Assembly (NCBI RefSeq): GCF_009829685.1
Contig: NZ_VWSD01000018.1
Span: forward strand, 1-32,390
Length of the DNA: 32,390 nt
Source of the DNA: Cellulomonas citrea
Lineage (GTDB): Bacteria > Actinomycetota > Actinomycetes > Actinomycetales > Cellulomonadaceae
Reading direction: 5' to 3'
Shown here in pieces: positions 5,093 through 17,795 of the stretch; position 1 is the stretch's first letter, and every line of letters starts with the position of its first letter. The translations under genes and the position numbers were made by a program. The notes beneath the pieces were generated by a model. The model searched no databases, was not told where the DNA came from, and worked only from the letters and a program-made list of their open reading frames with translations.

Positions 5093-6625
5093 ATGCCCAC
5101 CGTGAGCATCAGCGTGCGCCCCGAGCACGCCGTGGCCCGTCTCGACCGACGCCTGTTCGGGTCGTTCGTCGAGCACCTGGGGCGCTGCGTGTACGGCGGC
5201 ATCTACGAGCCCGGCCACCCGAGCGCCGACGAGGACGGCTTCCGCCGCGACGTCGTCGACCTGGTCACCGAGCTCGGGGTGTCCACCGTGCGCTACCCCG
5301 GGGGCAACTTCGTCTCGGGCTACCGCTGGGAGGACGGGGTGGGCCCGCGGGAGAACCGGCCGGTGCGGCGTGACCTGGCCTGGCACGTGCGCGAGACCAA
5401 CCAGATCGGCCTCGACGAGTTCGCCGCCTGGACCCGGCTCACCGGCGTCGAGCTCATGATGGCGGTCAACCTCGGCACCCGGGGCATCGCCGAGGCGCTC
5501 GACCTGCTGGAGTACACCAACGGTGAGCCCGGCACGGCGCTCGCCGACCAGCGCGTGGCCAACGGCTCGCCGGCCCCGCACGGGGTGCGCATGTGGTGCC
5601 TGGGCAACGAGATGGACGGCCCCTGGCAGACGGGCTACATGACCGCCGACGAGTACGGCCGGCTGGCCGCCCGCACCGGTGCCGCGATGAAGCAGGCGGA
5701 CAGCGGTCTGCAGCTCGTCGTGTGCGGGTCGTCCGGCTCGTCCATGCCCACGTTCGGCGAGTGGGAGCGCACCGTGCTGGGGCACGCGTACGACGTCGTC
5801 GACTACATCTCGTGCCACGCCTACTACCAGGACCACGGTGACCGGGCCTCGTTCCTGGCCTCCTCGGTCGACATGGACCGGTTCATCACGACGGTGGTCA
5901 CCGCGGCCGACCACGTGCAGCAGCTGCGCGGCTCCGACCGGCAGATCGCGCTCTCGTTCGACGAGTGGAACGTGTGGGACCTCACCGGGTGGCAGGTGAT
6001 CGAGGCGCAGGTCGCAGCCGACGAGAAGGCCGGCCGGGCCGTGCCCTGGCCGATCGCCCCGCGCCAGCTCGAGGACACCTACACCGTGACCGACGCCGTG
6101 GTGGTCGGCAGCCTGCTCATCACGATGCTGCGCCGCCACGACCGGGTGCGTGCCGCGAGCCTGGCCCAGCTGGTCAACGTCATCGCGCCGATCATGACCG
6201 AACCGGGCGGGCCGGCCTGGCGGCAGACCACGTTCTACCCGTTCGCGCTCACCTCGCGGCTGGCCGCCGGCACCGTCCTGGCGCCGCTCGTGGACTGCCC
6301 GACGATGCCCACGGCGACCTTCGGCGACGTCCCCGTCGTGGACGTCGCCGCGACGTTCGACGACGAGACCGGCCGCGCCGCCGTCTTCCTGGTCAACCGC
6401 CGGCAGGACGCGCCCACGTCCGTCCGGATCGACCTGGCCGAGCTGGGCGCCACCCGGGTGGTGGCGGCGCACGTGCTGCACGACGACGACCCGACGGCCC
6501 AGAACACCCTCGCCGACCCGGACCGCGTCACCCCGGCCCCGCTGGTGTGCACCGTGACCGACGACGGCGCGCTGCTCGTCGAGCTGCCGCCGATCTCGTG
6601 GGCCGCGATCGAGCTCGCCCGCTGA
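5093..6625 (+). CDS. abfA: GH51 alpha-L-arabinofuranosidase, intracellular
   Basis: This 510-residue glycoside hydrolase family 51 enzyme releases terminal alpha-L-arabinofuranose from arabino-oligosaccharides or arabinoxylan fragments. The N-terminal part carries FGSFVEHLGRCVYGGIYEP and the family block VRYPGGNFVSGYRWEDG. The acid/base glutamate is E173 in WCLGNEMDG and the nucleophile is E291 in SFDEWNVW, both in canonical context. The C-terminal part forms a beta-sandwich ending LPPISWAAIELAR. There is no signal peptide, so it acts on imported sugar. The start is the ATG at 5093 behind GAAAGGA; an in-frame extension to 5072 has no better support. It follows the permeases by 55 bp in the LacI-controlled operon. 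Confidence 0.95.
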   Translation: MPTVSISVRPEHAVARLDRRLFGSFVEHLGRCVYGGIYEPGHPSADEDGFRRDVVDLVTELGVSTVRYPGGNFVSGYRWEDGVGPRENRPVRRDLAWHVRETNQIGLDEFAAWTRLTGVELMMAVNLGTRGIAEALDLLEYTNGEPGTALADQRVANGSPAPHGVRMWCLGNEMDGPWQTGYMTADEYGRLAARTGAAMKQADSGLQLVVCGSSGSSMPTFGEWERTVLGHAYDVVDYISCHAYYQDHGDRASFLASSVDMDRFITTVVTAADHVQQLRGSDRQIALSFDEWNVWDLTGWQVIEAQVAADEKAGRAVPWPIAPRQLEDTYTVTDAVVVGSLLITMLRRHDRVRAASLAQLVNVIAPIMTEPGGPAWRQTTFYPFALTSRLAAGTVLAPLVDCPTMPTATFGDVPVVDVAATFDDETGRAAVFLVNRRQDAPTSVRIDLAELGATRVVAAHVLHDDDPTAQNTLADPDRVTPAPLVCTVTDDGALLVELPPISWAAIELAR

Positions 6626-6674: not shown

Positions 6675-8708
6675 GTGACGCACTTTCAGACCGACGGCCG
6701 CAGCCTCACCTGGACCGGCGACGGCGAGACCCTCGTCGTCGCCGCCTGGGGCAGCGACGGCATCCGGGTGCGATCCACCCTGTCGGGACCCCTCGCCGAC
6801 GACGACTGGGCGCTGCTGCCCGACCCGGGGTCGGCACCGGTCGTCGAGATCGACGAGGGTGAGGCGGTGCTGGTCAACGGCCGGATCACGGCCCGGCTGA
6901 CCGCCCGTCAGGAGTTCGACGCGCAGTGCGGCTACGACGTGAGCTCCTGCACGCTCACGTTCCTCGACGCCACCGGCCGGGTGCTGCTCAAGGAGCTCGA
7001 CGACGGTGGCTCGCTCAAGCTGCGCGCCCGGGACTACCGGGCGATCGTCGGCGGTGACCACCACCTCACGGCCGCGTTCGAGTCCGACCCGGACGAGCAC
7101 CTCGTCGGGATGGGGCTCTACCAGCAGGAGCTCGTGGACCTCAAGGGCTCGACGCTCGAGCTGGTGCACCGCAACTCCCAGGCGTCCGTGCCGTTCGTCG
7201 TGTCGAGCGCCGGGTACGGGTTCTTGTGGCACAACCCGGCGATCGGGCGGGCGACCTTCGGCCGCAACCGGACCGAGTGGGTGGCGCAGAGCACCCGTCA
7301 GCTCGACTACTGGGTGACCGCAGGCGACACCCCCGCCCAGATCGCCGCCGCCTACGCCGACGTCACCGGGCACGTGCCGATGATGCCCGAGCACGGTCTG
7401 GGGCTGTGGCAGAGCAAGCTGCGCTACGCCACCCAGGACGAGCTGCTGGAGACGGCGCGCGAGTACCACCGGCGCGAGCTGCCGCTCGACGTCGTGGTCG
7501 CCGACTTCTTCCACTGGCCGCACATGGGTGACTACCGGTTCGAGGAGGAGTTCTGGCCGGACCCGGCGGCGATGGTCGCCGAGCTGGACGCGCTCGGCAT
7601 CGAGCTCATGGTCTCGGTGTGGCCGCAGGTCTCCGTCGAGTCGGAGAACTTCGCCCGGCTGCGCGCGGACAACCACCTGGTGCGGGCCGACCGCGGGCTC
7701 GACGTCCAGATGAGCTTCGAGGGCCCGAGCATGTTCCTCGACGTCACCCACCCCGGTGGCCGTGCGGCGCTGTGGGACCTGTGCCGGACGAACTACTACG
7801 ACAAGGGTGTGCGCACCTTCTGGCTCGACGAGGCCGAGCCGGAGTACGGCCGCTACGACGTCGACAACTACCGCTACCACGCCGGCCCGGGCCAGCAGGT
7901 GGCGAACATCTACCCGCAGCGCTTCTCGCAGGCCTTCTTCGACGGCATGACGGCGGCCGGGCAGGAGCAGGTGGTCAACCTGGTCCGCTGCGCGTGGGCC
8001 GGCAGCCAGCGGTACGGCGCGCTCGTGTGGTCGGGGGACATCCGGGCGACCTGGCAGGACTTCCGGCGGCAGGTCGTCGCCGGCATCCACATGGGCGCGG
8101 CGGGGATCCCGTGGTTCACCACCGACATCGGCGGGTTCCACGGCGGGGACGTGCGTGACCCGGCCTTCCACGAGCTGCTGGTGCGCTGGTTCCAGTTCGG
8201 CACCTTCAGCCCGGTGATGCGGATGCACGGAGACCGGCGCCCGGGGCACCCCGTGCAGGCCGCCGACGGGTCGCGCCGCAGCCCGAGCGGGGCCGGCAAC
8301 GAGCTGTGGAGCTTCGGCGAGGACGTCTACGCCGTGCTGCGCCGCTACCTGGCCGTGCGGGAGGCGATGCGGCCCTACACCCGCTCGCTCATGGCGCAGG
8401 CGCACACGGCCGGTCAGCCGGTGATGCGCGGGCTGTTCCACGAGTTCCCCGCCGACGCCCGGTCCTGGCAGGTGGGCGACGAGTACCTGTTCGGGCCCGA
8501 CGTGCTGGTCGCCCCGGTGGTGCAGCCGGGGGCCGCCGGGCGGACGGTCTACCTGCCCGCCGGTGCCGTCTGGACCGATCTGACCACAGGACGTACCCAC
8601 GACGGCGGGCAGGCCGTCGAGGTCGAGGCCGCGCTCGACGTGCTCCCGCTGTTCGGGCGGGACGGTGCCGGCGACTGGTTGACGCCGGTGCTGCGCGCGC
8701 GGGGCTGA
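6675..8708 (+). CDS. GH31 alpha-xylosidase or alpha-glucosidase, intracellular
   Basis: This 677-residue family 31 hydrolase has an N-terminal beta-sandwich (to about residue 230), a TIM barrel starting near PEHGLGLWQSKLRY, and C-terminal beta domains. The catalytic nucleophile is D385 in FWLDEAEPEYG. The acid/base is D455 in VWSGDIRATW. The WLDxxEPE context resembles alpha-xylosidases of the xyloglucan type (WLDATEPE) more than classic alpha-glucosidases (WNDMNEP), so alpha-xylosidase is my preferred reading. An alpha-glucosidase or a transglycosylase remains possible. There is no signal peptide. The start is GTG at 6675 with GGAG about eight bases upstream. It is the last gene of the operon, 49 bp after the arabinofuranosidase, and is followed by a strong stem-loop. 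Confidence 0.88.
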   Translation: MTHFQTDGRSLTWTGDGETLVVAAWGSDGIRVRSTLSGPLADDDWALLPDPGSAPVVEIDEGEAVLVNGRITARLTARQEFDAQCGYDVSSCTLTFLDATGRVLLKELDDGGSLKLRARDYRAIVGGDHHLTAAFESDPDEHLVGMGLYQQELVDLKGSTLELVHRNSQASVPFVVSSAGYGFLWHNPAIGRATFGRNRTEWVAQSTRQLDYWVTAGDTPAQIAAAYADVTGHVPMMPEHGLGLWQSKLRYATQDELLETAREYHRRELPLDVVVADFFHWPHMGDYRFEEEFWPDPAAMVAELDALGIELMVSVWPQVSVESENFARLRADNHLVRADRGLDVQMSFEGPSMFLDVTHPGGRAALWDLCRTNYYDKGVRTFWLDEAEPEYGRYDVDNYRYHAGPGQQVANIYPQRFSQAFFDGMTAAGQEQVVNLVRCAWAGSQRYGALVWSGDIRATWQDFRRQVVAGIHMGAAGIPWFTTDIGGFHGGDVRDPAFHELLVRWFQFGTFSPVMRMHGDRRPGHPVQAADGSRRSPSGAGNELWSFGEDVYAVLRRYLAVREAMRPYTRSLMAQAHTAGQPVMRGLFHEFPADARSWQVGDEYLFGPDVLVAPVVQPGAAGRTVYLPAGAVWTDLTTGRTHDGGQAVEVEAALDVLPLFGRDGAGDWLTPVLRARG

Positions 8709-8710
8709 AG

Positions 8711-8754
8711 CGTCGAGGGGCACCTCGGGCCCGCACCCGGGGTGCCCCTCGACG
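8711..8754 (+). terminator. terminator-like stem-loop closing the arabinoside operon
   Basis: CGTCGAGGGGCACC (8711-8724) pairs perfectly with GGTGCCCCTCGACG (8741-8754), a 14-bp stem. The loop holds a further CGGG/CCCG pair. It starts two bases after the GH31 stop. There is no T-run, as is common for actinobacterial stem-loop terminators. Confidence 0.7.
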
Positions 8755-8901
8755 TGCCCGCCGTGACGGGCGCCTGGTGGCGTGGTCCCGGCCGGGGCGC
8801 CCAGCCAGGGCGCGATAATGCCGGGTGGGGGTGGCGCCGACGTGCCCGCCGCCGGGGCGGGACGGACCGCCCGCAGTCGATCGGCGAGGGGAAGCACCAC
8901 G

Positions 8902-9540
8902 ATGTCCGGGGTAGACGGTCCGGCCGAGCGGCGTCCGCGGGAGCGGGCCACGACGACGAGCGGTCAGCGCAAGCGGGACCTCATCCTGGACGCCTCGGTC
9001 CGGGTGTTCGGCACCGGGGGGTCGGCGGCGGTGACGCACCGGGCCGTCGCGGACGCCGCCCAGGTGGCGCTGGGCTCGACGACGTACTACTTCACGGACC
9101 GTGACGACCTGCTGCTGCAGACGATGGAGCACGCCCAGGCGGCCGAGTCGGTGCGGCTGGCGGCGATCGTCGAGGCGGTGCAGGGGCCGGTCGACGTGGA
9201 CCGGTCGGTGGCGCTGCTCACTCAGATGTTCTTCGACAAGACGACGGCCGACCCGTTGTACGACCTCGCGCTGTTCGAGATGTTCATGGAGGCGACCCGC
9301 AACGTCGCCCTGCGGCCGCAGACCCAGGCGTGGTCGGCGATGATCGGCGGCCTCGTGGACCGGGTGCTGCCGCCGAGCGACCCGGCGCTGCCGCGTGAGG
9401 TCGTGGTGCAGATCATCGCCTGCCTGGTGGACGGGCTCATGCTCGAGGCGGTGGCGAACGGCGAGCTCGACGTGCCGGACCTGTCGAGCCGGTTGCGGGT
9501 GGCCGTGGACCGGTTGTGCCCGGCGGGGACGGCCGGCTGA
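8902..9540 (+). CDS. TetR family regulator, probable AguR-like repressor of the agmatine operon
   Basis: This 212-residue protein has an N-terminal TetR helix-turn-helix. QRKRDLILDASVRVFGTGG, VTHRAVADAAQVALGSTTYYF and TDRDDLLL are all in the expected positions between residues 22 and 72, followed by a helical ligand-binding domain. The start is the ATG at 8902 with GGGGAAG eight bases before it; a longer in-frame extension to 8782 covers the promoter region and is rejected. A GATAAT hexamer at 8814-8819 is a possible -10. In Pseudomonas, AguR, also TetR-type, represses agmatine deiminase genes and responds to agmatine and carbamoylputrescine. Position directly upstream of the agmatine operon suggests the same job here, by inference. 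Confidence 0.88.
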   Translation: MSGVDGPAERRPRERATTTSGQRKRDLILDASVRVFGTGGSAAVTHRAVADAAQVALGSTTYYFTDRDDLLLQTMEHAQAAESVRLAAIVEAVQGPVDVDRSVALLTQMFFDKTTADPLYDLALFEMFMEATRNVALRPQTQAWSAMIGGLVDRVLPPSDPALPREVVVQIIACLVDGLMLEAVANGELDVPDLSSRLRVAVDRLCPAGTAG

Positions 9541-9556
9541 GGGCGGTTCCGGGGGA

Positions 9557-9588
9557 GCCTGGGACGGCGGGGACATTGGTCCCTAGGC
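9557..9588 (+). terminator. stem-loop after the tetR gene
   Basis: GCCTGGGAC (9557-9565) pairs with GTCCC-T-AGGC (9579-9588), giving nine base pairs with a single bulged T and a 13-base loop. It lies 16 bases after the tetR stop and immediately before the tandem operator. It probably separates tetR from the agmatine operon. Confidence 0.5.
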
Positions 9589-9602
9589 CTGCATGACCAG
9601 AC

Positions 9603-9643
9603 TTGTACGTTTGTACATATCGAAGTTGTGCGTTTGTACACAT
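9603..9643 (+). promoter_or_regulatory. tandem TetR operator upstream of the agmatine operon
   Basis: Two near-identical units lie 23 bp apart: TTGTACGTTTGTACA at 9603-9617 and TTGTGCGTTTGTACA at 9626-9640. The first contains the perfect palindrome TGTAC-GTTT-GTACA (9604-9617). The second differs at one base but gains TGTG...CACA outer arms. This AT-rich island in otherwise GC-rich DNA lies about 140 bp before the transporter start. It is the probable binding site of the adjacent TetR protein. The promoter itself is not clear; TACGTT at 9606-9611 could be a -10. Confidence 0.7.
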
Positions 9644-9782
9644 CTCGGCACGGTCCGCCCGGCGGTCCGGTGACGTCCAGGCCGCCAGGCGGCCCAGGGG
9701 CCACCGGGGCAGGGTGACCGGGGCGAGGTGCCGGCGCCGGCTTCGTGTCATGCACGTCAGCGGCACTGGCAAAGGAGCACTC

Positions 9783-11273
9783 ATGGCCGCCCAGACCGAC
9801 CGACCCCCGGTGGAGACCGGGACCACCGGTCGTCCCGCCTTCCGACTCTTCGACATGGTCCTGTTCTCGGTCGCAGCGATGCTGCTGCTGTCCCAGCTCA
9901 CCGTGACCGCGGCGGTCGGTCCCACCGCCATCTTCTGGACCATCGCGATCATCGGGGCGTTCTTCGTCCCGTACGGCCTGGTCACCGCGGAGCTCGGTTC
10001 GGCCTACCCCGACGCAGGCGGCATCTACGCCTGGGTCGTGCGGGCCTTCGGCAACCGGTGGGGCAGCCGGGTCTCCTGGTGGTACTGGCTGAACGTCGGC
10101 CTGTGGGTACCGAGCGTCTACCTCATGTTCTCCGGCGCCATCTCCTCGATGTTCTTCGGCGGACACCTCAACTTCTGGGTGCAGATCGCGATCACCGTCG
10201 TGCTCATCTGGATCAACTACTGGGTGAACGCGCGCAGCCTGGAGACCGGCACCTGGGTGTCCAACGTCGGGGCCGGGATCACCATCGCGGTGATCGTCGC
10301 GCTCGCCGTCGCCGGTGGCATCTACGCCACCAACCACGGCTCGGCCACCGAGTGGACCGCGAGCACGATGCTGCCGACCGATGCGCTGCCGGCCTTCGCC
10401 GCCGCGCTGCCCATCGTCATCTACAACTTCCTGGGCTTCGAGCTCATGTCGTCCGCCTCGACCCAGATGGAGAACCCCAAGCGCGACGTGCCGCGCACCA
10501 TCGCCGTGGCGGGGGCCCTCATCGGCGGCTTCTACCTCATCGCCACCGTCGGCATGCAGCTCATCCTGCCGGCCGACGAGATCTCCAGCACCACCGGCCT
10601 CATCGACGCCCTGCAGCGTGGTCTGGGCGAGTCCGCGGTCGCCCACGTCATCGTCACCGCACTCGGCATCGGCGCCCTGTTCTGCTTCTTCGCCTGCCTC
10701 GTGCCCTGGACCATCGGGGCCAACCTCGCCGCCGCCGAGGCCGCCCAGCAGGGCGACCTGCCCAAGGTGTTCGCCCGGGTGCACCCCGAGCGCGGCACCC
10801 CGGTCGGTGCGGCCATGCTGTGCTCGGTCGTCGGGACGGTGTTCACCGTCGGCTACGCCGCCCTGTTCTCGCTCACCGACGGCGCCATCGACGACGTGTT
10901 CTGGAACCTGTTCGCGTTCTCCTCGGTGATCTTCCTGCTGCCGTACATCGTCATGATGCTGGCGTTCCGCACGCTGCGCCGCATCGACGGCGACCGGCCC
11001 CGCCCGTACCGCGTCCCCGGCGGCCCCGTGGCCACCTGGCTCATCACGTGGGTGCCCACGGCCCTGCTCGTCATCGCCGTCCTGTTCTTCGTCTGGAACC
11101 CGTTCAGCTACTCGTGGGCGGCCACCGGGTCGATCCTCGTCGGCCTCGCCGTCACGGTCGCCTTCCAGGAGTACTTCTGCTTCCGGTCACCCCGGTGGAC
11201 CCGCGAACGCGCCCTCGAACGCGGCGACGACCCCGACTCCGTCCGGCAGCAGTTCGCCGACACCCCGCTCTGA
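9783..11273 (+). CDS. APC superfamily amino acid/polyamine transporter, probable agmatine-putrescine exchanger
   Basis: This 496-residue membrane protein has about 12 hydrophobic segments. The first ([24 protein letters not shown]) carries the GadC/APC-type opening, and [21 protein letters not shown] is the consensus APC motif after the second segment. The C-terminus is cytoplasmic and charged. It belongs to the amino acid-polyamine-organocation superfamily. Its place as first gene of an agmatine deiminase operon suggests agmatine import, perhaps in exchange for putrescine, as AguD does in enterococci and lactococci. The start is the ATG at 9783 behind AAAGGAG; earlier in-frame codons run through the operator region and are rejected. 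Exchange versus simple uptake cannot be decided from sequence. Confidence 0.88.
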
Positions 11274-15023: not shown

Positions 15024-15137
15024 ATGGCGTGCTTGCACCCCTCGGACCCGCGCTGCCGGGTCGTGGTCCCGGAACAGCGAGCTTCGGGCTTCGGCCGGGG
15101 GCGGAGCCGCCGGCTGGCGGAAGGTCTACGAGGGTGA
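15024..15137 (+). CDS. possible 37-residue leader ORF coupled to the Clp-N gene
   Basis: An ATG six bases after TACCGT opens a 37-codon frame whose TGA shares its last base with the ATG of the next gene (TGATG). The peptide is basic and Arg-rich (MACLHPSDPRCRVVV at the start, RGRSRRLAEGLRG at the end), with no recognised domain. Most codons end in G or C (30 of 37). The Clp-N gene lacks a well-placed ribosome binding site, so re-initiation after this ORF would explain its translation. The ORF could equally be chance in GC-rich DNA. A regulatory leader role is inference. Confidence 0.3.
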   Translation: MACLHPSDPRCRVVVPEQRASGFGRGRSRRLAEGLRG

Positions 15138-16096
15138 TGAGCGGCAGGGACCCCCTGAACCTCAGCCGCCGCGCGACCTACGTGCTGGCAGCCGCGAAGG
15201 CTATCGGGCAGCCACGCCAGCGGGTGGGGAGCGGAGAGCTTCTCGCGGCGCTCGCGGACGACGTCTGGGGTCCCGCGGGGATCACGCTCGCGCGGTGCGG
15301 TGCCGATGTCGACGCGGTGGTCGCGGGTGTCGAGGCGCTGCAGGAGCTCGGGCCCCGCACCTCCGGCACCGTGGCGTACTCGCCCGTCCTTGGACGAGTC
15401 CTGCGCAGCGCCACGGGCTATGCCCCGCTCAGGGCGCCGATCACCACGGAGCACCTCCTGCTCGGGCTGCTCGACGAACCGGACTCGGTGGCTGCGACGA
15501 TCCTGGAGGTGCTCGGCGTCCGGGTGCGCACGATTCGCACCGGCCTCGCGGACGTCGATCCTGTCCTGGCCGCGAGCGACGGGGATGGCCCCGGCGCACG
15601 CGTCCTGCGCTGGCCGGAGTCGATCGAGCTCAGCCATCCGCCGTCCAGCGTCTGGGCACTGATCGAGCCGCCCGAGCACGCTCATCTCCTCGCCGAGGGC
15701 ATCCTGAGCGGAGCGCGCCGGCAGCCGGAGGCCGGGCGGGAGATCCACGAGCTCGTCGTGCGTCCTGGCGGCCCCGGTGACCGGGTGCTTCTCGCGGTGG
15801 AGCGCGCGCCGTCCGGGCTGGGCGCCCGGGTTCGGCAGATCGAACCAGTACCCGCCGTCCCGTTCGAGAACGTGCACGAGGTCACGCCAACGATCGCTGG
15901 ATCTCTCCTGCGTCTGACCTGCGTGGTCGACGTCGACGACCTGCGGCCCCAGGCGAGGTACCTAGGACGACGCGTGCTCGGACGCATCGAGGCAGGGACC
16001 CGGACAGGGAGTCGCGACTTCCTGGACCGGGTGGCCGCGTGCCTCGACGGGGGGTGGGCACCCCAGGTCTCCGGGGTCGGCGATGCGTCCCAGTGA
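15137..16096 (+). CDS. Clp N-domain protein fused to an SRPBCC-like domain
   Basis: This 319-residue protein opens with two Clp-N (ClpC/ClpA N-domain) repeats. One, around residues 7-70, begins LNLSRRATYVLAAAKAIGQ. The second, around 78-142, contains the diagnostic TTEHLLLGLLDEPDSVAATILEVLGV. No AAA+ module follows. Instead residues from about 152 (WPESIELSHPPSSVWALIEPPEHAHLL) to 310 look like an SRPBCC/START lipid- or ligand-binding fold, by secondary-structure pattern only. Clp-N domains recognise substrates and adaptors for ClpC, so this may be an adaptor or decoy; that is inference. ATG 15137 is the first start that keeps repeat 1 intact; GTG 15134 and GTG 15029 are alternatives. It overlaps the next gene by 14 bp. 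Confidence 0.75.
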   Translation: MSGRDPLNLSRRATYVLAAAKAIGQPRQRVGSGELLAALADDVWGPAGITLARCGADVDAVVAGVEALQELGPRTSGTVAYSPVLGRVLRSATGYAPLRAPITTEHLLLGLLDEPDSVAATILEVLGVRVRTIRTGLADVDPVLAASDGDGPGARVLRWPESIELSHPPSSVWALIEPPEHAHLLAEGILSGARRQPEAGREIHELVVRPGGPGDRVLLAVERAPSGLGARVRQIEPVPAVPFENVHEVTPTIAGSLLRLTCVVDVDDLRPQARYLGRRVLGRIEAGTRTGSRDFLDRVAACLDGGWAPQVSGVGDASQ

Positions 16097-16862
16097 TCTG
16101 ACGCCGGAGTACTTCCTCGTCTGTTCCCTCCTGATCTCGACGAGCATCGGTGTCATGCTCGTGCGGCCGCGACCCCTGGGGCTGCGCGGTGAACGCATGC
16201 CACGACTGATCGGCTCGTATCTGCTGCGCATCGCGGTGCTGGTTGCTCTCGCTCTTCTCGCGCGCGACCTTGGAGGCGCCCCGGTGGCGCAGTTCCTGGA
16301 CGCGGCCGGCGCCCTCGGTGCCGTCAGCTGGGTGCGCACGCGGCTCGACCCCGGGTCCGGATCCGCCGCGCCGGTCCTCGTCGGCCTCGTCGCCGTCTCA
16401 CTGCTGTCCGTCTCCTGGCAGTACCTCGTTCTGCGGCCCTTCTCGGACCGGCAGATCGGACGCCGGCTCGACCAGGTCTTCGCGACGACGGGCAGGGCCG
16501 AGCACACCGTGATGACCATCGGATCAGCGGTCCTGGGGTGTCTCGAGGAGGTCGTGTTCCGCGCCCTTCTGCCGACGCTCTTGTACACCCGAGGGGCCGG
16601 CGTCGCTCTGGCGGTGGTCGCGCCTACCGTTGTCTTCGTCGCGCTGCATGTGGAGCAGAAGGCGGTGGGACTGGTCAACGCCACTGTCGTTGGCGTCGTC
16701 CTCATGGCGGTCTACCTGGTCACCGGGCAGCTGCTCTGGGTGATCGCTCTCCATGCCACTGCCAACGTGCTCGCGCTGGGCGTCGAACCCGAGATCCGCA
16801 GGATGAGGGAGCGGCGGATCGTTCGGCGCGCGATCGAAGCCCGCGGGTCGGCGGCCGTGTGA
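16083..16862 (+). CDS. CPBP family intramembrane glutamic protease (Abi/Rce1-like)
   Basis: This 259-residue membrane protein has about seven hydrophobic segments and all three CPBP motifs. These are EExxxR as E155-E156-VVF-R160, FxxxH as F185-VAL-H189, and HxxxN as H224-ATA-N228. Family members cleave prenylated or membrane substrates, or act in bacteriocin self-immunity, so the protease should be active at the membrane. Its ATG lies inside the end of the Clp-N gene, so the two are cotranscribed and probably coupled. Codon use departs from the neighbours: 15 of its first 60 codons end in A or T, compared with 5 of 60 in argS. A stable hairpin follows six bases after the stop. The substrate is unknown. 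Confidence 0.9.
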   Translation: MRPSDLTPEYFLVCSLLISTSIGVMLVRPRPLGLRGERMPRLIGSYLLRIAVLVALALLARDLGGAPVAQFLDAAGALGAVSWVRTRLDPGSGSAAPVLVGLVAVSLLSVSWQYLVLRPFSDRQIGRRLDQVFATTGRAEHTVMTIGSAVLGCLEEVVFRALLPTLLYTRGAGVALAVVAPTVVFVALHVEQKAVGLVNATVVGVVLMAVYLVTGQLLWVIALHATANVLALGVEPEIRRMRERRIVRRAIEARGSAAV

Positions 16863-16868
16863 GCGGTT

Positions 16869-16900
16869 GCCGAGCGGTCGTCGATCGGCGACCGCTCGGC
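16869..16900 (+). terminator. strong stem-loop between the CPBP gene and a small ORF
   Basis: GCCGAGCGGTCG (16869-16880) pairs perfectly with CGACCGCTCGGC (16889-16900), a 12-bp stem with an 8-base loop. It begins six bases after the CPBP stop and ends six bases before the ATG of the small ORF. It may terminate most transcripts or limit access to that start codon. Confidence 0.6.
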
Positions 16901-16906
16901 GGTCAG

Positions 16907-17035
16907 ATGATGCTCGAGGTCCCGGTGCAGAGCACCCCGGTCCCGCTCGACGTGCATCGCTTCGCTGCCGAGAAGGACGTCATGATCGTGGATCCTGCCG
17001 GGACGATCTACCGACTGCCGAAGGGGGCGCCGTGA
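16907..17035 (+). CDS. small protein of unknown function, 42 residues
   Basis: The frame opens with two adjacent ATG codons (16907, 16910) and encodes MMLEVPVQSTPVPL, then an acidic/hydrophobic stretch ending IVDPAGTIYRLPKGAP. I recognise no family. The stop overlaps the GTG of the next gene by four bases (GTGA), which supports real, coupled translation. A GTG at 16859 that overlaps the CPBP stop would give a 58-residue version reading through the hairpin. The shorter form is preferred because the extra residues are Arg-rich and match the hairpin arms. The linkage resembles small partner or antitoxin genes, but no function is assigned. Confidence 0.5.
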   Translation: MMLEVPVQSTPVPLDVHRFAAEKDVMIVDPAGTIYRLPKGAP

Positions 17036-17610
17036 CCGGCCCGGTGCGGTACACCGAGCACTGGAGCTCGCAGACTGGGCGCCCGTTCCCTGAGTGTCAT
17101 TGGATGACCCTCGACGAGGCGCGCGCGCGGTACGCGACGCTGGACCGCTCGTTCGTCGTGGTGGACGCGTCGCAGGTGATCGACGAGCAGACCGTCCAGG
17201 CTCGGTGGACGGTCGGTTTCGCACCGAACGGCTGGGTGAGGGCACGGTTCTTCTCCCCGGTCGGGTCGGTCACTCACCTCACCGACTACGCCCCGATCGA
17301 CGGTCGGTTGTGGCGGTCGCGAACGATCGACTACACCTACCCCGACGACGAGCACGAGTACGTCGAGTTCCAGGCCCTGCGGCACGTCACCTGCGCGTTC
17401 GAGCCGGACGGGTCGGCCACCGTCATCATCGTGGACAAGGAGCACTCGACGAAGGACGTGGGCACCAGTGAGCACGTCCACAGCGAGGGGTTCTGGATGG
17501 ACCGACCCGCGTTCGGCGACTGGGACGACCTGACCGACAAGAGCTACGGCATCCCCCCGACTGAGCCCGGGTGGCAGTCAAGGCCCCCCTCACCGGTGAG
17601 CTCGATCTGA
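17032..17610 (+). CDS. unrecognised 192-residue protein
   Basis: The GTG at 17032 overlaps the previous stop (GTGA). The soluble product begins VTGPVRYTEHWSSQTGRPFPE and is rich in aromatic and acidic residues. Alternating beta-strand-like segments (RSFVVVDASQV, VQARWTVGFAPNGWVRARFFSPVG, YVEFQALRHVTCAFEPDGSATVIIVDKEH) suggest an all-beta or alpha/beta domain. The C-terminal part, from about residue 150, is Trp/Asp/Pro-rich with EGFWMDRPAFGDWDD. No signal peptide, membrane segment or catalytic motif is evident. Only 5 of its first 60 codons end in A or T, like the housekeeping genes and unlike the CPBP gene. It could be an immunity-type or ligand-binding protein, but I cannot assign a family. 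Confidence 0.7.
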   Translation: MTGPVRYTEHWSSQTGRPFPECHWMTLDEARARYATLDRSFVVVDASQVIDEQTVQARWTVGFAPNGWVRARFFSPVGSVTHLTDYAPIDGRLWRSRTIDYTYPDDEHEYVEFQALRHVTCAFEPDGSATVIIVDKEHSTKDVGTSEHVHSEGFWMDRPAFGDWDDLTDKSYGIPPTEPGWQSRPPSPVSSI

Positions 17611-17715: not shown

Positions 17716-17722
17716 ACGAACG

Positions 17723-17795
17723 TGCGCCTGACAGGATTCGAACCTGCGACCTTCTGCTCCGGAGGCAGACGCTCTATCCACTGAGCTACAGGCGC
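17723..17795 (-). tRNA. tRNA-Arg (anticodon CCG)
   Basis: The 73-base minus-strand sequence folds as a full cloverleaf. The acceptor arms are GCGCCTG and CAGGCGC with discriminator A. The D arm contains TAGCTCAGTGGATAGAGC. The anticodon loop CTCCGGA gives anticodon CCG, which reads CGG. The T arm contains GGTTCGAATCC. CCA is not encoded. A TAGGGT hexamer at 17830-17825 on the minus strand is a possible -10, about 30 bases upstream. A 14-bp stem-loop follows the 3' end. The placement next to argS, which charges this tRNA, is common in actinobacteria. Confidence 0.97.

Follow-up and report, generated by a model that had tools for sequence, protein, structure and literature searches.

A motor-less ClpC-type N-domain fusion encoded in overlap with a CPBP-type intramembrane protease in Cellulomonas citrea

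What might a ClpC-type N-domain do when it is encoded without an AAA+ motor and directly in front of an intramembrane protease? This question is raised by a locus in the window (the whole stretch of DNA analysed, 32,390 nucleotides of contig NZ_VWSD01000018.1 of Cellulomonas citrea), which belongs to a genome of 3.4 Mb in 434 contigs with a completeness of 99.9%. A first-pass annotation, made from the letters and their open reading frames (ORFs), had described the two genes as a two-part device in which a soluble protein senses a ligand or presents a target and links ClpC-type proteolysis to a cut in the membrane. The pair is a real, unusual two-gene unit made of known parts, and its family is tiny. 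The features of the locus, in window coordinates, are as follows.

15137-16096, plus strand: fusion gene (319 aa), with a ClpC-type N-domain at about residues 9-140 and then an SRPBCC-like C-terminal half at about residues 155-310, without an AAA+ motor.
15599-16069, plus strand: SRPBCC-like C-terminal half of the fusion; Pfam match just above the cut-off, strand and helix order of a low-confidence model fitting, hhalign weak.
16083-16862, plus strand: CPBP/Rce1-like intramembrane protease gene (259 aa), assigned by Pfam and catalytic residues, overlapping the fusion gene by 14 bp.
16870-16899, no strand: perfect 11-bp inverted repeat with a loop of 8 and without a T run, placed behind the protease gene and ahead of the 42-aa ORF.
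16907-17610, plus strand: 42-aa and 192-aa ORFs behind the pair, overlapping by 4 bp (GTGA).
17722-17795, minus strand: tRNA-Arg (CCG), adjoining the block of the pair.

Composition of the two genes

The N-terminal part of the fusion was found to match Clp_N (PF02861) in two stretches (E 2.1e-13, 50.6 bits), and a profile of the fusion and its homologue from a second genome (G736, see below) matched complete ClpC N-domains of the PDB over columns 22-160 (best E 1.9e-16). Both Clp_N repeats are present and the whole length of a ClpC N-domain is covered. No AAA+ family was detected in the 319-aa protein at E≤1, and the fusion consequently lacks what defines a Clp/Hsp100 unfoldase, an AAA+ motor in the same chain. 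The double ClpC-type N-domain without a motor that had been read from the sequence was thus borne out by both Pfam and the PDB profile match. The genome has its own ClpC-type protein on another contig (C397), whose Clp_N match is far better than that of the fusion. On the 19-residue Kyte-Doolittle scale no hydrophobic segment above 1.3 appears in the window fusion; the G736 fusion peaks at 1.43, within its Clp-N part, and the window protease has several segments above 1.3.

The protease matches the Rce1-like family (PF02517) at E 3.7e-14, with 53.2 bits against a cut-off of 22.4. It possesses E155, E156, R160, H189, H224 and N228, which we take, as the first-pass annotation did, to be the CPBP catalytic motifs EExxxR, H and HxxxN, and all six are invariant in the G736 homologue. 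The Pfam score and the residue positions therefore agree with the catalytically complete CPBP protease first proposed, and the overlap of 14 bp proposed with it corresponds to positions 16083-16096. PF02517 and the three motifs are common to CPBP/Rce1-like (type II CAAX) glutamic proteases such as MroQ, MrtJ and SilX, from which the window protease differs in having a Clp-N fusion as its partner and in falling below the listed NCBIfam equivalog cut-offs (best 32.9 bits against 75, and 32.5 against 270 for the G736 homologue).

The SRPBCC label of the C-terminal half is marginal and is the weakest point of the gene identification. Polyketide_cyc2, a family of the SRPBCC clan, was matched by residues 161-280 at E 4.2e-6 with 27.5 bits against a cut-off of 27.4 (28.6 bits in the whole-genome scan). 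The SRPBCC-like domain named in the first-pass annotation is thus retained on a match barely over the cut-off, while the C-terminal half of the G736 fusion has no Pfam family at E≤1 and a profile-profile comparison (hhalign) with 20 Polyketide_cyc2 segments gave a weak result (19% probability, E 0.0012; 0.1% for the C-terminal half against the protease pair, as a control). Structure prediction from the window sequence alone gave two models too poor to be used in a fold search (mean pLDDT 34.8 and 35.2), in which only the order of the elements fits the helix-grip fold of SRPBCC: one, of full length, has a strand, a helix, five strands and a long helix in the expected order, and the second is without the first strand. 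It is nevertheless likely that the C-terminal half has an SRPBCC-type ligand-binding fold. The just sufficient Pfam score and, in a low-confidence model, the order of strands and helices are what it has in common with SRPBCC/Polyketide_cyc2 proteins; it differs from them in its fusion to a ClpC N-domain and in a match that is marginal and is absent in the homologue.

The C-terminal half alone was also searched in 297 genomes of the order, a sample which may or may not include G736. Two C-half matches were rejected. One, in genome G163 (E 2.7e-4; E 1.6e-5 over 61 residues), is to a protein that reads as a secreted alpha/beta hydrolase; the other, in genome G635 (E 3.1e-4, 84 residues), lies within a 1025-codon frame, and none of the genes called at that locus matches the C-terminal half.

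Surroundings and probable acquisition

Behind the protease gene, the inverted repeat is a possible end of the transcription unit, to judge from its sequence and place; a promoter and terminator scan returned nothing, with no T-tailed site. The 42-aa and 192-aa ORFs have no Pfam match at E≤1 and no NCBIfam match, and the 192-aa protein has none among plasmids. As they are unmatched beside the G736 pair, they are not counted as part of the core. The tRNA is the only Rfam hit in the window.

A GntR gene adjoins the tRNA-Arg site, and 19 related loci (L103-L121) were compared. GntR was present in 19 of 19 and the same tRNA in 18, and the genes of the pair in none. One family recurs in 10 of the 19 loci and others in 8 and 7; most of the genes closest to the tRNA, GntR aside, were found in one or two loci. 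The site is a partly variable one, with a backbone common to part of the genus.

The third-position G+C content (GC3) of the pair is 0.850 for the fusion and 0.842 for the protease, against 0.940-0.983 (mean 0.964) for 22 other genes of the window; that of the 192-aa ORF is 0.912. The values of the G736 genes (0.864 and 0.892) do not stand out from those of the genes around them and are not off-type. A search for exact copies of parts of the tRNA 3'-half (12- to 20-base words at the first 30 offsets) found none elsewhere in the window, and hence no att site. The off-type GC3, the patchy presence and the variable tRNA-Arg site indicate that the pair was probably acquired in this genome.

Recurrence and distribution of the pair

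A second pair was identified in G736, a genome of the same order and another family (locus L102). The fusion homologue lies at 9456-10466 on the minus strand; directly behind it, on that strand too, comes a CPBP homologue (8663-9466) which overlaps it by 11 bp. The G736 fusion was retrieved by the window fusion at E 2.9e-25 with 34% identity over residues 12-309, and the two align end to end (32% over 316 columns in pairwise BLASTP); the proteases share 33.8% identity (E 8.6e-35). Pfam assigns Clp_N (9.8e-14) and Rce1-like (9.3e-15, 55.1 bits) to the G736 proteins. The fusions have HLLLGLLDEPDSVA in common in the second repeat, together with scattered residues along the C-terminal half, and the proteases also share sequence blocks that lie beyond the Pfam match or at its margin, such as ERMPRL and TTGRAE. 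The two fused domains group together in a tree of 36 N-domains with support of 99/95, on long branches of which the tool warned.

The pair, its overlap and its gene order are thus seen in two families of the order, and in both the catalytic residues are intact and the fusion is motor-less. No other called gene of the window matched the genes of the 20-kb G736 stretch at 1e-4, so that the unit consists of the fusion and the protease. The first-pass proposal depended on homologues of the two genes being adjacent in other genomes; they are adjacent in G736, and since the second pair is known from a single genome this recurrence rests on one independent case. It is on this account better founded than could be known from the sequence of one locus. 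The part of the proposal that makes the genes one unit is supported by the G736 pair, while the soluble sensor or presenter stays at the level of a suggestion.

The recurrence also bears on the explanation that the two are cargo genes which merely travel together, with the CPBP protein working by itself, for instance in immunity, and the fusion having an unrelated task. In its favour, CPBP proteins are found in a great variety of contexts with no partner of this kind, and the position of the window pair is an accessory one. Against it, G736 has the genes in the same order and with a stop/start overlap at about 34% identity, among different neighbours, and genes whose overlap persists through divergence of this extent usually act jointly. 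Co-transfer without joint action is considered improbable.

The pair is rarely met. With the whole fusion as query, 81 genomes of its own genus gave a full-length match only in the genome of the window, and 149 genomes of the phylum gave no other at 1e-12. The same query gave no other full-length match in 394 genomes of the class, where the listed matches were in the N-domain only, apart from one rejected C-half match, and one other full-length homologue, that of G736, in 396 genomes of the order. A two-sequence profile matched 373 of 398 genomes in the family of G736, because ordinary ClpC N-domains match the fusion profile; sorted by E, G736 (1.5e-185) was followed by a match to the N-domain alone (5.8e-17), and among the matches listed only G736 was full-length. 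The class, order and family searches scored at most five candidates per genome, so that a diverged copy could have been missed, and as the genome samples overlap their counts cannot be summed. The G736 fusion as query found only G736 in 60 genomes of its genus, and the protease alone found no other at 1e-8 in 60 genomes of the window genus.

Mobile elements were searched as well. Neither plasmids nor phages gave a match to the window fusion, and plasmids gave none to the window protease; the G736 fusion matched one plasmid record, annotated as a Clp subunit, and the G736 protease 39 (38 from Lactococcus and one from Sphingomonas), none of which covers 80% of the query. Single-sequence queries of the viral_contigs set gave no relative of either window protein, and the protease profile gave none. 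The fusion profile matched one viral contig (L183, 5001-5420) in the Clp_N region only (residues 7-140, 24% identity). In the genome_contigs set the fusion query gave two loci with the N-domain only, of which L022 is a full ClpC.

To serve as a control, 33 motor-less Clp-N loci were taken from the class, genus and order searches, with gene calls from a simple script. A called Clp-N gene was obtained in 28; L060, L064, L073, L087 and L088 were dropped, having no called gene that matches the N-domain. None of 87 neighbours (at least 120 aa, within two genes) in 27 loci matched Rce1-like at E≤0.001, L058 having no neighbour of this size; the window protease was added to the set as a positive control. 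A narrow scan for the motif EE..FR, run on the genes called in the window, in L022 and L023 and in the 33 control loci, hit the window protease and nothing else. Polyketide_cyc2 was present in 0 of the 28 motor-less Clp-N proteins. As the G736 fusion itself misses this family, the C-terminal half was queried directly; it retrieved the G736 fusion at E 1.3e-7 and none of the 28 other proteins at E≤1. In the first-pass annotation it had been proposed to count how often a CPBP gene lies beside motor-less Clp-N genes. The count is 0 of 27 loci, with the G736 fusion as the sole other case, so the CPBP partner belongs with this fusion, the rest of the motor-less Clp-N genes surveyed having none. This difference is a further reason to regard the two genes as one unit, which looks rare and specific, though it has been seen only twice.

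Two other arrangements were seen among the motor-less Clp-N proteins. In alignment A4, from which the cut-off Clp-N protein of L066 was left out, one protein carries a NUDIX domain and one member has a weak CcdA match; Clp-N may have been combined with several small domains. At 5702-6441 of locus L084 (genome G031, same genus as the window) a different motor-less Clp-N gene (176 aa) shares one base with an upstream 69-aa ORF, perhaps another two-gene arrangement.

Residues of the N-domain and a possible role of the pair

The first-pass annotation tied the fusion to ClpC-type proteolysis, and here the comparison was unfavourable. In alignment with the ClpC1-type N-domain of the same genome, the equivalents of ClpC1 F2, F80, K85 and E89 are S, Y, G and R in the window fusion and P, F, A and L in the G736 fusion, the F2 position adjoining an alignment gap. 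Four of four are changed in the window and three of four in G736; F2, K85 and E89 are lost in both, and only the F80 position is still aromatic in both. Among other motor-less Clp-N proteins, 8 of the 28 were aligned, and these keep F2 in 8/8, F80 in 7/8, K85 in 8/8 and E89 in 7/8. Both Clp_N repeats over the entire domain length are shared with ClpC1; in contrast to ClpC1 and other Clp/Hsp100 unfoldases, the fusion is motor-less and has the cyclic-peptide-binding and resting-state residues changed.

A close known likeness is ClpC2 of mycobacteria, a motor-less partial homologue of ClpC1 described as a sponge for cyclomarin and as a repressor of the gene that encodes it (PMC10030653). Both have a ClpC-type double-repeat N-domain without an AAA+ motor, but in ClpC2 an additional dimerising domain precedes it, whereas the fusion has an extra SRPBCC-like domain behind. 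F2, F80 and E89 are named as the residues on which cyclomarin binding by ClpC1 critically depends and which ClpC2 conserves (PMC10030653). ClpC2 thus keeps the cyclomarin contacts; the fusion loses most of them (S, Y and R in the window; P, F and L in G736) and has a membrane protease gene attached.

Could the fusion itself be such a decoy, which would soak up, in solution, toxic peptides or natural products directed at the ClpC1 N-domain, with the protease as a second defence at the membrane? ClpC2, which binds cyclomarin and protects, is a precedent (PMC10030653), and the genome has its own ClpC1-type protein. The loss in both fusions of F2, K85 and E89, which the eight other motor-less proteins mostly keep, weakens the idea, and we consider a decoy quite unlikely.

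The glutamates bear on a further explanation. According to PMC12583610, all the cyclic peptides make contact with K85, on which the resting state of Staphylococcus aureus ClpC also crucially depends, and E32 and E106 are the glutamates of the phosphoarginine pockets. By our own assignment from the alignment, which equates glutamates of GTEH motifs with E32 and E106, the window fusion keeps the second and the G736 fusion the first. A ligand-gated modulator of ClpC/ClpP, whose N-domain would compete for adaptors or substrates or pass membrane-cut proteins to ClpC, could draw on a complete ClpC-type domain with one of the two glutamates kept in each fusion, but is just as unlikely as the decoy: the pocket that is lost differs between the window and G736 fusions, and neither fusion has the K85-type contact. 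For the same reasons no ClpC-specific surface is clearly conserved, and with F2, K85 and E89 lost in both fusions the link to ClpC proteolysis is left unsupported. The N-domain appears, on its residues, to be a diverged recognition module and gives no indication of a cyclomarin-type sponge or of a ClpC mimic.

The reading we tentatively prefer, at somewhat short of even chances, is that the pair is a small, rarely kept and horizontally spread unit in which the fusion is a receptor or regulatory subunit of the membrane protease and the ClpC motor is uninvolved. A more pointed version, in which a retired ClpC recognition domain and a ligand-binding domain form the receptor of an intramembrane glutamic protease, as a mobile two-gene module where cytosolic recognition of a ligand or peptide governs an intramembrane cut, is conceivable though on the doubtful side. 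Under the preferred reading of a receptor or regulatory subunit, ribosomes finishing the fusion would re-start on the protease by coupled translation, so that both proteins would be made and act together. The fusion would be cytosolic, its diverged ClpC N-domain would recognise a protein or peptide, and the SRPBCC-like half may hold a hydrophobic ligand or lipid. The two proteins would form a physical complex, in which the fusion would either bring the substrate to the membrane protease or release the activity of the protease.

As to purpose, our guess is that the pair protects the cell against envelope stress, such as that from a membrane-active peptide; it is drawn from CPBP proteins in bacteriocin loci (for example SilX, PMC9298176) and from ClpC2. 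The neighbours lend this role no support; PADLOC matches were partial and weak (best E 0.0041), and none to a known anti-phage defence system was significant.

The first-pass annotation knew of no described system with this pair, and none was found in the literature searched, which took in subscription papers in part and no preprints; within the same scope no paper was found that names Clp_N together with SRPBCC, both so spelt. For many bacterial CPBP proteases, to our knowledge, the way in which cuts are chosen and timed is not settled. If the preferred reading is true, a dedicated soluble partner would make the choice and timing of a CPBP cut testable in a two-gene system, and the ClpC N-domain would have been reused outside the Clp machine in a way that goes beyond decoys.
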